The translations under genes were made by a program, and so were the position numbers. A stretch of DNA of 64,000 bases from Serinicoccus marinus DSM 15273 (lineage in GTDB: Bacteria > Actinomycetota > Actinomycetes > Actinomycetales > Dermatophilaceae): assembly GCF_008386315.1 (NCBI RefSeq), contig NZ_CP043808.1, positions 2,108,001 through 2,172,000 of the forward strand, written 5' to 3'. The notes below the pieces were generated by a model. It had not been told where the DNA came from, did no database searches, and was given only the letters and a program-made list of their open reading frames with translations. This document shows, piece after piece, positions 1 through 63,104 of the stretch. Every line of letters starts with the position of its first letter. Position 1 is the stretch's first letter.

Positions 1-500
1 GGGTCGGGCTGCTCCAGGGACTGCCCGTCGACGTCGTCCGGACCGTCCTCGACGAGCGCATCACCCTCGCGCCGGGCGGACCCGAGCTGCTCGCCACGAC
101 GGCGGCGCACGGAGGGTATGCCGCGCTCGTGTCGGGCGGTTTCACCCACTTCACCGAGGTGGTCGCCGCACGGCTCGGCTTCGACGAGCACCGTGCCAAC
201 ACGCTCGAGGTGGCCGACGGGCGGTTGACCGGCCGGGTGGTCCCACCGGTGGTCGGCCAGGACGCCAAGGTCGCCGCGCTGCGCGCGATCACGTCCCGCC
301 TCGGGCTGACCCCCGCCGACGCCGTGGCGGTCGGCGACGGGGCCAACGACCTGCCGATGCTGCAGCTCGCGGGGCTGGGCGTCGCCCTGCACGCCAAGCC
401 GGCGGTGGCCGCGCGCGCCCCGGTCCGGGTCAACCACGGCGACCTCACCGCCCTGCTCTACCTGCAGGGCTACTCCGACGACGAGATCGTCCGCCCCTGA
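1..500 (+). CDS. serB: Phosphoserine phosphatase SerB, C-terminal part (5' end outside window)
   Basis: The open frame enters from the left edge (codons begin at base 3), giving about 165 visible residues. HAD-superfamily phosphatase motifs are present: SGG at visible residues 44-46 (motif II), the motif III lysine near residue 89 (QDAK), and VGDGANDLPML at 110-120 (motif IV, metal-binding aspartates). This arrangement is typical of SerB, which dephosphorylates phosphoserine in the last step of serine biosynthesis. The catalytic DxDxT motif and any N-terminal ACT domain lie upstream of the window. A related HAD phosphatase cannot be fully excluded. A GGTATGCC octamer lies inside the frame at 115. 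Confidence 0.85.
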   Translation, partial: VGLLQGLPVDVVRTVLDERITLAPGGPELLATTAAHGGYAALVSGGFTHFTEVVAARLGFDEHRANTLEVADGRLTGRVVPPVVGQDAKVAALRAITSRLGLTPADAVAVGDGANDLPMLQLAGLGVALHAKPAVAARAPVRVNHGDLTALLYLQGYSDDEIVRP

Positions 501-555
501 GCCTTCTGGACCTTGGTTCGTGGGACCCGCCGCCCAGAAACGTCGGTCCAGAAGA

Positions 556-1272
556 TCAGCGACCGGCCTGGTAGCGCTCCATGAGGTCCGGGCGGCGCTG
601 CGCGGTGCGGGCCAGTCGCTGCTCGTGCCGCCAGGCCGCGATCTGGCCGTGGTGGCCCGACAGCAGGACGTCGGGCACCTCGTGCCCCCGCCAGCTCGCG
701 GGCTTGGTGTAGACGGGATACTCCAGCAGCCCCCCGGTGTGCGACTCCTCGGCCAGCGACGCCTCGTTGCCGACCATGCCGGGCAGCAGCCGGGCGATGG
801 CCTCGGTCATCGCCAGGACGGCGACCTCGCCGCCGTTGAGGACGTAGTCGCCCAGGCTGAGCACCGACAGCGGGTAGCGGGAGGCGAACTCGTCGTAGAC
901 CCGCTCGTCGATGCCCTCGTAGCGGCCGCAGACGAAGACCAGCCAGTCCTCCTGCTCCGCGAGCCGCTCGGCGGTCGCCTGCGTGAAGACCTCACCGCCG
1001 GGGCCCGGGACGACGATCCGCGGCGTCCGCCCGGGGACCGAGGTGCAGATCGCGTCCAGCGCCTCGCCCCACGGCTCGGGCCGCATGACCATCCCGGCGC
1101 CACCGCCGTAGGGCGTGTCGTCGACGGTGCGGTGCCGGTCGTGGGTCCAGTCGCGCAGGTCGTGCACCTGCACCTCGAGCAGTCCCTCGCGCCGCGCCCG
1201 CCCCAGCAGGGAGAGCTCGAGCGGCGCGAGGTAGTCCGGGAAGATCGTGACGACGTCGAGACGCAGCGGCAT
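556..1272 (-). CDS. trmD: tRNA (guanine-N1-)-methyltransferase TrmD
   Basis: This 238-residue protein matches the usual TrmD length. It methylates G37 next to the anticodon of tRNAs reading CCN, CUN and CGG, using S-adenosylmethionine, and so protects reading frame. SPOUT-family signatures are visible: YGGGAGM at 55-61, CGRYEGIDERV at 115-125 and SLGDYVLNGGE at 139-149 (trefoil-knot cofactor loop). The ATG at 1272 is chosen; it lies inside a GGTATGCC octamer, five bases past the rimM stop. An in-frame GTG three codons upstream is the alternative. It is the last gene of the rpsP-khpA-rimM-trmD operon; no rplS follows within the window. Confidence 0.95.
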   Translation of the reverse strand: MPLRLDVVTIFPDYLAPLELSLLGRARREGLLEVQVHDLRDWTHDRHRTVDDTPYGGGAGMVMRPEPWGEALDAICTSVPGRTPRIVVPGPGGEVFTQATAERLAEQEDWLVFVCGRYEGIDERVYDEFASRYPLSVLSLGDYVLNGGEVAVLAMTEAIARLLPGMVGNEASLAEESHTGGLLEYPVYTKPASWRGHEVPDVLLSGHHGQIAAWRHEQRLARTAQRRPDLMERYQAGR

Positions 1273-1277
1273 ACCTC

Positions 1278-1799
1278 TCACTCCCCCAGCTCGAGCAGAC
1301 CCGGCGGCGGGTCGACGACGACCCGGCGGGCGTCCTCGTCCACCTCGGGCACCAGCTCGTCGACGAAGGGCACGAGCACCTCGCCGCCGGGGGTGATGAC
1401 CTCGAGCAGGTCCTGCACCGGGCGGACGTGCAGCGCGCTCACCTCGCCCAGCGGGCTGCCGTCGGGGAGGACGACGGCGAAGCCCAGCAGGTCGTCCTCG
1501 CGCCAGCCGTCCTCCTCGCCCTCGGCTGCGTCGTCCTCGTCGTCGGTGACGAGCAGCCGGGTGTCCCGCAGCCCCTCGGCCGCGGTCCGGTCGGTATGCC
1601 CCTCGAAGGCGAGCAGGTAGATCCCCTGGTGCTGCCGCACCGAGCGCAGCACCAGCGGCCCGGTCGCGGCCGGCTCGGTGGTGAAGCTCTCCCCCACGAC
1701 GAAACGCCCCTCGGGGTCGTCGGTGTGCACCTGGACGGTGACCTCGCCCCGCAGACCGTGCGGCCTGCCGATCCGAGCGGCGACGAAGGCCTCGGTCAT
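1278..1799 (-). CDS. rimM: Ribosome maturation factor RimM
   Basis: The 173-residue protein has the two-part RimM layout: an N-terminal barrel with RIGRPHGLRGEV at residues 9-20, and a PRC-barrel from about residue 100 (DDLLGF...PLGEV). RimM binds protein S19 and helps mature the head of the 30S subunit. The middle has an acidic insert rich in D and E near residues 85-100. The stop nearly touches the trmD start, and the gene lies between khpA and trmD in the classic order. The 107-bp spacer to khpA is G+C-rich and shows no clear terminator. Confidence 0.95.
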   Translation of the reverse strand: MTEAFVAARIGRPHGLRGEVTVQVHTDDPEGRFVVGESFTTEPAATGPLVLRSVRQHQGIYLLAFEGHTDRTAAEGLRDTRLLVTDDEDDAAEGEEDGWREDDLLGFAVVLPDGSPLGEVSALHVRPVQDLLEVITPGGEVLVPFVDELVPEVDEDARRVVVDPPPGLLELGE

Positions 1800-1906
1800 G
1801 GTGCTCCTGTCGGGTGTGCCGTCCTCCGGGACGGGCTGCGGGTGGGACGCGTGCGGCCCGCCCCGGCGGTGGTGCCGGGACGGGCCGTCAAGCGGGACGC
1901 CTCGCG

Positions 1907-2149
1907 TCAGCGGGTGCGGTCGGTGTCGACGATGTCGACCCGGACCTTGTCCCCGCCGGCGAGCGCGCCGACCACGGTGCGCAGCGCGCTCGCGGTCCGG
2001 CCCCGCCGACCGATGACGCGGCCGAGGTCGTCAGGGTGGACCCGGACCTCGAGGACCTCACCGTGGCGGGCGTTCTTGGTCCGCACGGCGACGTCACCGT
2101 CGTGGTCGACGATGCCCTTGACCAGGTGCTCCAGGGCTTCCTCGAGCAC
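1907..2149 (-). CDS. khpA: KH-domain RNA-binding protein KhpA (YlqC/DUF2109-like)
   Basis: An 80-residue single KH domain with the GxxG loop as GRRG at residues 47-50 (context LGRVIGRRGRTA). Proteins of this family bind RNA, in some bacteria as a partner of KhpB, and sit between rpsP and rimM in many Gram-positive genomes, as here. The start follows the rpsP stop by two bases, which implies translational coupling. Family and position agree; the RNA targets in this organism are unknown. Confidence 0.9.
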   Translation of the reverse strand: MLEEALEHLVKGIVDHDGDVAVRTKNARHGEVLEVRVHPDDLGRVIGRRGRTASALRTVVGALAGGDKVRVDIVDTDRTR

Positions 2150-61991: not shown

Positions 61992-62011
61992 ATGGGGGTG
62001 TCTCACGCTGT

Positions 62012-62027
62012 GCAGTTGTCAAACTGC
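62012..62027. promoter_or_regulatory. Dyad upstream of ssrA and the membrane gene
   Basis: GCAGTT and AACTGC around GTCA; the minus strand reads TTGACA across it, a possible -35 for ssrA, but no -10 at good spacing was found. Confidence 0.3.
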
Positions 62028-62114
62028 GCGGCCGTAGCCGGGCAGACGATCATTCTAGTGGGTCAACGCGCGCCGGGCCACGCACATTCCGCACGCCGTG
62101 AGAGGGTCGCTGCC

Positions 62115-62543
62115 ATGACCACCCCCACGGGCACGAGCGGCGCCCCGACCGACCTGAGGCCGTTGACGATCATGGTCGGCGCGATGGCCGGTGCGCTGGT
62201 CGTCATCGGTGTCGTCCTGACCTTCCTCGGGGCCGAGATGGCGGTGCCCTCGACGTGGGCGCTGCTCGTGGTCGCTGCCGCCACCCTCGGAGCCTGGGCG
62301 CTCGTGCTGGTCATGCCGCCTCCGCGAGCCCCTCAGGGCGCGTCCCTGGCCGCCGCCGTGTCCCCCGTCGTGGTCTTCCGCGCCGCGGTCCTGGAGGCTC
62401 CGGCGATCATCGGGCTGATGCTGTTCTTCATCAACGGGCCCTCGCTGCTGATCTACGCCCTGCCGGCGGTCTTCGCGATCGCGGGGATGGTGCTCTTCGC
62501 CCGCCCGTCGGTGGTGGCGCGGCGCCTCAGCCGTGCCGCTTGA
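62115..62543 (+). CDS. Small four-helix membrane protein, unknown function
   Basis: 142 residues with four hydrophobic helices (LTIMVGAMAGALVVIGVVLTFL, WALLVVAAATLGAWALVL, VVFRAAVLEAPAIIGLMLFF, LLIYALPAVFAIAGMVLF; some given in part). No signal peptide or conserved motif recognised. Ends overlap the convergent smpB end by 17 bp. Confidence 0.65.
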   Translation: MTTPTGTSGAPTDLRPLTIMVGAMAGALVVIGVVLTFLGAEMAVPSTWALLVVAAATLGAWALVLVMPPPRAPQGASLAAAVSPVVVFRAAVLEAPAIIGLMLFFINGPSLLIYALPAVFAIAGMVLFARPSVVARRLSRAA

Positions 62544-63003
62544 GGTGGGCTGACATCGCCCGGTCGGCCTCGCGCCGGTCCTGCCGCTCGCGCAGCGTCT
62601 GCCGCTTGTCGTGCAACTTCTTGCCCTTGGCCAGCGCGATCTCGACCTTCGCGCGGCCGTCGACGAAGTAGAGCGAGAGCGGCACGATCGTGTGCCCGGC
62701 CTGCTCGGCCTTGGCGACCAGCTTGTCGATCTGGTCGCGGTGCAGCAGCAGTTTGCGACGCCGGCGCGCGGAGTGGTTGGTCCACGTGCCCTGGGTGTAC
62801 TCCGGGATGTGCACCCCCTCCAACCACAGCTCGCCCTGGTACTGCGTGGCATACCCGTCGACCAGGCTCGCTCGCCCGTGCCGCAGCGACTTCACCTCGG
62901 TCCCGGTCAGCACGAGGCCGGCCTCGACGGTGTCCTCGATGAGGTACTCGTAGCGGGCCTTCTTGTTGCTGGCGATCAGCTTGCGTCCGGAGTCCTTGGG
63001 CAT
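62527..63003 (-). CDS. smpB: SsrA-binding protein SmpB
   Basis: 158 residues, near the usual size. IASNKKARYEYLIEDTVEAGLVLTGTEVKSLR (in part) is the SmpB core. It brings tmRNA to stalled ribosomes. Upstream of ssrA on the same strand, as in many bacteria. Confidence 0.96.
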   Translation of the reverse strand: MPKDSGRKLIASNKKARYEYLIEDTVEAGLVLTGTEVKSLRHGRASLVDGYATQYQGELWLEGVHIPEYTQGTWTNHSARRRRKLLLHRDQIDKLVAKAEQAGHTIVPLSLYFVDGRAKVEIALAKGKKLHDKRQTLRERQDRREADRAMSAHLKRHG

Positions 63004-63104
63004 GGCCGGTCTAGTCTAGGTGAACCACCGGTATGCCGTCCGCCGGTTTCTGGCGTCGAGGCTGAGCGAACCACTCCTTGTGCCTTGGTGTACGTGGTCG
63101 AACG

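Follow-up and report, generated by a model that had tools for sequence, protein, structure and literature searches.

Short words that recur over the whole chromosome have been described in several bacterial groups. The Neisseriaceae possess eight dialects of a DNA uptake sequence (DUS), two of which are carried by Simonsiella muelleri, and DUS 10-mers number about 1,900 in N. gonorrhoeae and N. meningitidis (PMC3630211). The uptake signal sequence (USS) of the Pasteurellaceae occurs in thousands of copies and two subtypes (PMC3630211), and the highly iterated palindrome HIP1 of cyanobacteria is replaced by alternate HIPs in some lineages, each word having its specific methyltransferase (PMC4390886). 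Chi sites form another class of over-represented words, of 5-10 bases (PMC4390886). Here, we describe the octamer GGTATGCC, found in a 64,000-base stretch of the Serinicoccus marinus DSM 15273 genome (coordinates 2108001-2172000, hereafter the window), in the rest of that genome and in its relatives. We lean towards the reading that the family shares a DNA uptake sequence, of which this octamer is the dialect found here.

The resemblance to DUS lies in the shortness of the word, its thousands of copies, the related dialects and the existence of some members without any (PMC3630211). The 1,783 genomic copies of GGTATGCC are similar to the DUS numbers of N. gonorrhoeae and N. meningitidis, and two genomes with three words each (G424 and G425) parallel Simonsiella muelleri with its two dialects (PMC3630211). 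Several differences stand beside these likenesses. The phylum here is Actinomycetota, the core is GTATGCC/GGATGCCG rather than the CTG of DUS, there is no excess of inverted pairs, PilT exceeds its cut-off in only 2/186 genomes, no ComP-like receptor was identified in the comparisons made, and one clade uses an unrelated word, CGAAGGGGG.

USS share the copy number in the thousands and the existence of subtypes (PMC3630211), but they are unrelated in sequence and their hosts are Gram-negative. HIP1 and the alternate HIPs are alike in their very high iteration and in the replacement of one word by another; unlike the words described here, they are palindromic. They go with methyltransferases of the same specificity (PMC4390886). 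Chi is likewise an over-represented word of octamer size, whereas GGTATGCC has no strand bias and RecC is lacking in 11/20 word-rich genomes. Micrococcus luteus has comEA and comEC, requires Flp/Tad pili for transformation and has no comG cluster reported (PMC6370729). Its comEA, comEC and tad genes have counterparts in the genome studied here. The part of that source consulted mentions no uptake sequence for M. luteus (PMC6370729).

Abundance and DNA-level character of the octamer

The window holds 48 exact copies of GGTATGCC, 26 on the forward and 22 on the reverse strand, the first at 115-122 and the last at 63030-63037. It is the top-ranked 8-mer of the window (48 against 1.55 under an order-2 Markov model), and 100 dinucleotide-preserving shuffles of the window gave a mean of 0.72 copies and a maximum of 5. 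The single-contig genome of 3,420,275 bases (G000) contains 887 copies on one strand and 896 on the other, 1,783 in all, against 11 (7 + 4) of the reversed word. This amounts to 521/Mb, or about one copy per 2,000 bases. Frames and strands were analysed in an 864-kb sample consisting of the window and 40 stretches of 20 kb; it has 474 copies (238 and 236), 75-fold more than the 6.3 expected under an order-3 model of core-masked sequence. A short, non-palindromic word with hundreds to thousands of copies in both orientations is what is seen in uptake sequences.

An earlier note, made from the letters of the window, had reported about 48 exact copies on the two strands, with the orientations about equal and with copies also in spacers and in 98-bp elements. 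It took these for a genome-wide signal, an idea that a genome count near the Markov expectation would have overturned. The counts bear it out on each of these points: 14 window copies lie outside called genes, one (47879..47886) is inside a 98-bp element, and the genome total is far from that of the reversed word. The note knew of no described function for GGTATGCC, and a literature search turned up none either; among the matches listed, papers containing the letters had unrelated titles.

The core of the word is the 7-base GTATGCC, with 671 sites in the 864-kb sample, 473 of them preceded and 364 followed by G. Farther out than the first base on each side, the flanking sequence carries mainly the codon period. 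Under the core-masked order-3 model, GGTATACC, GGTATGCG and GGTATGCA are enriched 6- to 7-fold and GGTATGTC and GCTATGCC 4- to 5-fold, while the remaining one-base variants reach at most 3.6-fold. An apparent depletion of near misses (at first 0.22-fold for GGCATGCC and 0.23-fold for GGTACGCC) became 0.83 and 0.72 once this model was used, and that claim was dropped.

These values bear on a HIP-like origin, in which an orphan methyltransferase and methylation-directed repair bias would make and maintain the word, and dialects would follow changes of methyltransferase. Such an origin would account for great abundance and for replacement between lineages, both of which are known for HIP1 (PMC4390886). 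However, HIPs are palindromic, and neither GGTATGCC, which differs from its complement GGCATACC at 2/8 positions, nor the words of its relatives (CGTATGCCG, CGGATGCCG, CGATGCGG and CGAAGGGGG) are. The palindromes one change away from the octamer are also not comparably enriched: GGCATGCC not at all (24 against 29.0) and GGTATACC 7-fold, against 75-fold for the octamer itself. We consider a HIP-like origin unlikely. Words that are not palindromic, fall equally on both strands and form dialects restricted to a family are a better fit to uptake sequences, so that of the two comparisons drawn in the earlier note, that with uptake sequences stands and that with HIP1 fits less well.

Another possibility is that the copies stem from constraint on proteins or codon pairs, or that they belong to an interspersed repeat. 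Genes were identified with a simple codon-score caller, which called 754 and missed some, and 671 of these entered a synonymous shuffle (50 rounds) that left each gene with its own protein sequence and codon usage. The octamer occurs 341 times in these genes, against 28.4 expected. The commonest frame is x-Tyr-Ala (129/341), as a constraint might produce, and the octamer accounts for 53/90 ATA and 129/464 TAT codons. Nevertheless, enrichment is seen in each of the six frames, the lowest being 5.6-fold (Gly-Met-Pro) and the highest 39-fold (Val-Cys), which shows that it is independent of reading frame and protein and refutes a codon-pair explanation. Together with flanks that hold mainly codon period beyond one base, this leaves constraint or an interspersed repeat with a negligible probability.

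The octamer is similarly indifferent to genes and their direction. In the window, 34 copies fall in called genes and 14 outside, a split affected by genes that the caller missed; in the sample, density is 526/Mb within called genes and 645/Mb elsewhere. Within the 100 bp preceding a called start, it rises to 969/Mb, with 65 copies, and for 15 of these the called start codon is the ATG of the copy. Position along genes is uniform (Kolmogorov-Smirnov p 0.69), and sense and antisense copies number 178 and 172 (p 0.79). With dnaA at coordinate 7 and the terminus assumed at the half-way point, 222 copies lie on the leading and 252 on the lagging strand (p 0.18). A KOPS-like polar sequence was ruled out, as this replichore polarity was not seen.

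Gaps between copies are near exponential (coefficient of variation 0.94), so spacing is not even. Copies per 20 kb are more variable than a Poisson process would give (43 bins of that size, mean 11.0, variance 26.3, range 0-23); one stretch (L052) has a single copy and another (L061) has 2. Density was also seen to be lower around oriC (L022, L023, L042 and L061), with 22 copies in 80 kb (275/Mb) against 549/Mb sample-wide.

Conservation was assessed in an alignment of the own sequence to stretches of G257 (inferred to be S. kebangsaanensis, as its word counts equal those of the genome that contains L001) and to L001, covering 97 kb at 82.6% identity. Among the 49 own copies that are ungapped in it (2 more, in gaps, were left out), 32 sites are unchanged (65%), against 31.6% for all 8-mers, 39.8% for words of the same GC content and 40.2% for anagrams (p 0.0003 against anagrams). 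A malate-synthase-like protein of the window, below the model cut-off, has its best match, among the named matches listed, in Serinicoccus kebangsaanensis (86% identity). In summary, GGTATGCC is a DNA-level, orientation-free, genome-wide and conserved signal. The earlier note had argued for such a genome-wide DNA-level signal from the occurrence of the octamer in all reading frames and from the inability of protein constraint to explain it, and had named a codon-pair bias confined to one frame as a finding that would speak against it. Genome counts, the synonymous shuffle, conservation and the lack of a strand bias, for which it had proposed a test, all support its view.

Range and dialects of the word

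In a survey of the order (396 genomes, evenly drawn from a larger group), none of the 362 genomes outside the window's family has more than 136 copies of GGTATGCC, as judged from a list read by eye. Within this sample, the octamer is abundant in the window's family only. NCBI places Serinicoccus in the Ornithinimicrobiaceae, Micrococcales. Across 186 genomes from 53 genera of the family, totals run from 6 to 2,228, with at least 100 copies in 119/186 and fewer in 67/186 (a tally from hand-copied totals). Named examples include S. sediminis (1,363), S. chungangensis (1,375), O. pekingense (817) and O. tianjinense (1,283). The word has also dwindled within genera: G490 has 38 copies against 285-2,180 in 30 other genomes of its genus, G462 has 11 against 1,694 and 347 in its congeners G463 and G464, and G400 has 20 against 264-493 in four congeners.

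Other words were sought in nine family genomes with at most 137 copies of GGTATGCC, and four of these have a strong one: CGGATGCCG in G422 and G542, CGATGCGG(TG) in G461 and CGAAGGGGG in G438. All three occur in several frames and both orientations, and all exceed the synonymous shuffle, CGGATGCCG with 56 against 6.7 (G422) and 34 against 3.8 (G542), CGATGCGG with 86 against 19.7 and CGAAGGGGG with 31 against 4.8. No word stands out in G519, G547 or G426, for which 82-108 kb of coding DNA were analysed; in G519, GGATGCCG is mildly over-represented (54 against 11.0, order-2 model, 120 kb) and CGGATGCCG has 377 copies against 115 of the control. Two further candidates were set aside. G462 CGTACGGCG is weak (31 against 8.1) and contains a palindrome, and G213 CGTATGCCGCT belongs to a longer, mostly non-coding repeat, with only 6 CGTATGCCG in called genes. 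The repeat in G213 (L090-L093 and L164) is close to CGTATGCCGCTGGGCTCG, and its core TATGCCGCT has 31 copies in 100 kb; it is possibly a dialect with a long word, or else an unrelated element of intergenic DNA.

Family-wide counts show how these words are distributed. CGGATGCCG reaches 2,347 copies in G422, 1,871 in G423, 2,294 in G542, 1,941 in G407, 1,961 in G408, 1,011 in G424 and 968 in G425, and never exceeds 448 in the remaining 179/186 genomes. CGTATGCCG peaks at 3,218 in G476, with a reversed control of 364, and has about 900-1,800 copies in many genomes that also bear GGTATGCC; the control is raised in word-rich genomes perhaps because it overlaps the word. Three words occur together in G424 and G425, which besides CGGATGCCG have 523 and 508 copies of GGTATGCC and 504 and 493 of CGTATGCCG, while their congeners G422 and G423 have mainly CGGATGCCG (GGTATGCC 125 and 89; CGTATGCCG 178 and 150). 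CGAAGGGGG is unrelated to the other words and is a second genome-wide word in two genera, with 797-1,860 copies in 16/16 genomes of g9 and 1,317-1,939 in 3/3 of g5, and no more than 80 in any of the remaining 167; both genera have ATGCC words at baseline level. Some genera of the family carry CGTATGCCG, CGGATGCCG, CGATGCGG and CGAAGGGGG as dialects at a density similar to that of GGTATGCC; dialects of this kind are also seen in the uptake sequences of the Neisseriaceae.

The distribution also helps to weigh two further explanations. A binding site for a chromosome-organising protein, whether for segregation, for the nucleoid or of FtsK type, would be expected to be genome-wide, spread and conserved, as GGTATGCC is. 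Yet such a site predicts polarity or regular spacing, neither of which appears in the replichore counts or the gap distribution, and one would not expect a site with an essential chromosome function to give way to an unrelated word, as it has in two genera. We regard this explanation as improbable.

The second is a Chi-like recombination hotspot with RecBCD as its reader. Chi sites are non-palindromic and differ between species, as the words described here do, and RecC is present in the Serinicoccus genome itself. However, RecC (PF04257) is absent from 11/20 word-rich genomes tested, including G476 with its 3,218 copies of CGTATGCCG, and present in 12/18 genomes poor in ATGCC words, a set that includes the CGAAGGGGG-bearing G438 and G469. 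This distribution largely refutes RecBCD as a general reader, and the lack of a leading-strand bias (222 against 252) is a further point against a Chi-like role, which we consider very improbable.

Competence genes and a putative uptake watermark

The Serinicoccus genome encodes DNA-uptake machinery. comEA (SLBB and HHH domains, 347 aa) and comEC (812 aa) form one operon at 950,254-953,729 (L047 15254-18729), and a Tad locus (L176) contains a TadA-family ATPase (TIGR03819) and a TadE minor pilin (NF041390). Beside these lie proteins without a family match that, from sequence and gene order, we read as TadB/TadC-like and, at 67 aa, Flp-like.

The octamer resembles DUS in its high density, its equality between strands, its conservation, its indifference to genes and its dialects, and together with the com and Tad genes these features lead us to propose a watermark for uptake through Tad pili. 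Uptake, reader and drive are inferred. Some protein of the natural-transformation apparatus that reads sequence (ComEA, perhaps, or a minor pilin of the Tad/Flp type) would prefer extracellular DNA with the word; such DNA would enter via ComEC and then recombine. Point mutations that create the word would spread because word-bearing DNA is more often taken up and recombined, and the word would accumulate chromosome-wide in both orientations. A change in reader specificity would then allow a new word to replace the old one and give rise to dialects. On a broader proposition, our judgement is evenly balanced: that this is self-DNA recognition in Gram-positive bacteria, combining Tad/Flp-pilus competence with a watermark that is exchanged as a whole from one genus to another, in one jump even for the unrelated CGAAGGGGG, so that a change of reader acts as a gene-exchange barrier between lineages of one family.

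Several observations weigh against reading the octamer as an uptake sequence. ComEC is found in 180/186 family genomes and T2SSE/Tad-type ATPases in 20/20 genomes tested, word-poor ones included; being nearly universal, they do not separate word-bearing from wordless genomes. Nor does PilT, above cut-off in two genomes of the 186, tell word-rich genomes from word-poor ones. When com and Tad proteins were compared by best-hit identity, from G000 and G424 only, no obvious dialect-linked outlier appeared, and neither this comparison nor the presence of ComEC, PilT and T2SSE identified a reader protein. The integrity of ComEC gives a mixed picture and does not track the word. Among genomes that have lost the word, comEC is split over two frames in G462 (L208), and comEA and comEC look intact in G400; the comEC match in G490 (L209) breaks off at residue 405, close to the edge of a contig. 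Among those that retain it, two have a comEC that looks damaged, which in G487 (L210) lacks residues ~373-508 and in G034 (L204) has its first part in another frame.

The arrangement and genomic context of the copies were also compared with those of uptake sequences. Inverted pairs of uptake sequences serve as terminators in Neisseria, a trait that is not strictly defining. In the 864-kb sample, there is no excess of inverted GGTATGCC pairs: neighbours within 60 bp number 9 against 17 expected, 8 of them inverted (5 head-on in one way and 3 in the other) and 1 direct. Inverted close pairs are about at chance level and direct ones fewer, and a terminator role for the octamer was ruled out. Uptake sequences are expected to be scarce in recently acquired DNA. 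Two stretches chosen for lacking the word, L038 (20 kb, GC 67.8%) and the initial 16 kb of L043, have zero copies. Ten of their open reading frames (ORFs) were tested; 5 encode transposases or rve-type integrases (IS110, rve x3 and DDE), 3 have no Pfam match and 2 are other enzymes. The lack of the word from these transposase stretches is possibly compositional, because density climbs with GC content (179, 294, 304, 574, 616 and 773 per Mb over six GC classes; r 0.49).

No transformation data for the source organism were found in the literature searched. Sequence-specific uptake is regarded as an exception confined to Neisseria and Haemophilus, and in almost every other competent species uptake is called sequence-independent (PMC12040237; similarly PMC12236230). 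A search that excluded preprints and covered few subscription papers found, among the matches listed and by title or abstract start, no uptake sequences described in Actinobacteria or other Gram-positives. What is seen here looks like the self-DNA tags that serve a few Gram-negative bacteria in DNA uptake, a habit that had not been known in bacteria of this kind.

Should these words truly be uptake sequences, the trait would have a separate origin in a Gram-positive phylum whose pilus is of a different type. The dialects over 53 genera would then be a natural experiment on the way in which a receptor and thousands of sites change together, and on whether such change isolates lineages. Even with another reader, several mutually replacing genome-wide words within one bacterial family need explaining.

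Copies and repeats within the window

All 48 window copies are exact matches to GGTATGCC. Across the 864-kb sample, the ATG of the octamer is the start codon of 17/754 called genes, and four such cases lie in the window: 1268..1275 (reverse strand; gene 559-1272), 8843..8850 (forward; gene 8846-9508), 19323..19330 (forward; gene 19326-20054) and 46876..46883 (reverse; gene 46305-46880). The third forms an inverted pair with the reverse-strand copy at 19310..19317. The ATG of the reverse-strand copy at 4425..4432 opens the ORF 2870..4429, for which the gene caller set the start at 4408.

Copies marked as lying outside called genes are found on the forward strand at 24723..24730, 43909..43916, 60209..60216 and 63030..63037, and on the reverse strand at 34687..34694 and 49630..49637. 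The reverse-strand copy at 15521..15528 lies within the ffh gene, identified by NCBIfam.

The remaining forward-strand copies, apart from one in a repeated element described below, are at 115..122, 1593..1600, 3848..3855, 5654..5661, 7936..7943, 12882..12889, 17382..17389, 17724..17731, 21585..21592, 26887..26894, 35627..35634, 36540..36547, 40275..40282, 43372..43379, 45146..45153, 53155..53162, 55361..55368, 57309..57316 and 58218..58225. Those on the reverse strand are at 8619..8626, 13362..13369, 17587..17594, 22863..22870, 23790..23797, 37933..37940, 40609..40616, 46749..46756, 50298..50305, 51086..51093, 55029..55036, 58291..58298, 59449..59456 and 62848..62855.

Two similar elements in opposite orientation, at 47820-47960 (the 98-bp element) and 49760-49900, hold one octamer each, the first on the reverse strand (47879..47886) and the second on the forward strand (49817..49824). 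Both elements contain CACGCCACACC.GCCCCAGGCATACCTGTGCA and GATATTTCCTCAG. The window also has a 129-nt periodic repeat at 9998-11199, with 7 copies of 62-76% identity to the reference, in or beside a 705-aa ORF (10488-12605), and about 4 copies of the 32-nt tandem repeat GGGGCAACCACACGCGACGCTCGGTC at 52133-52292.

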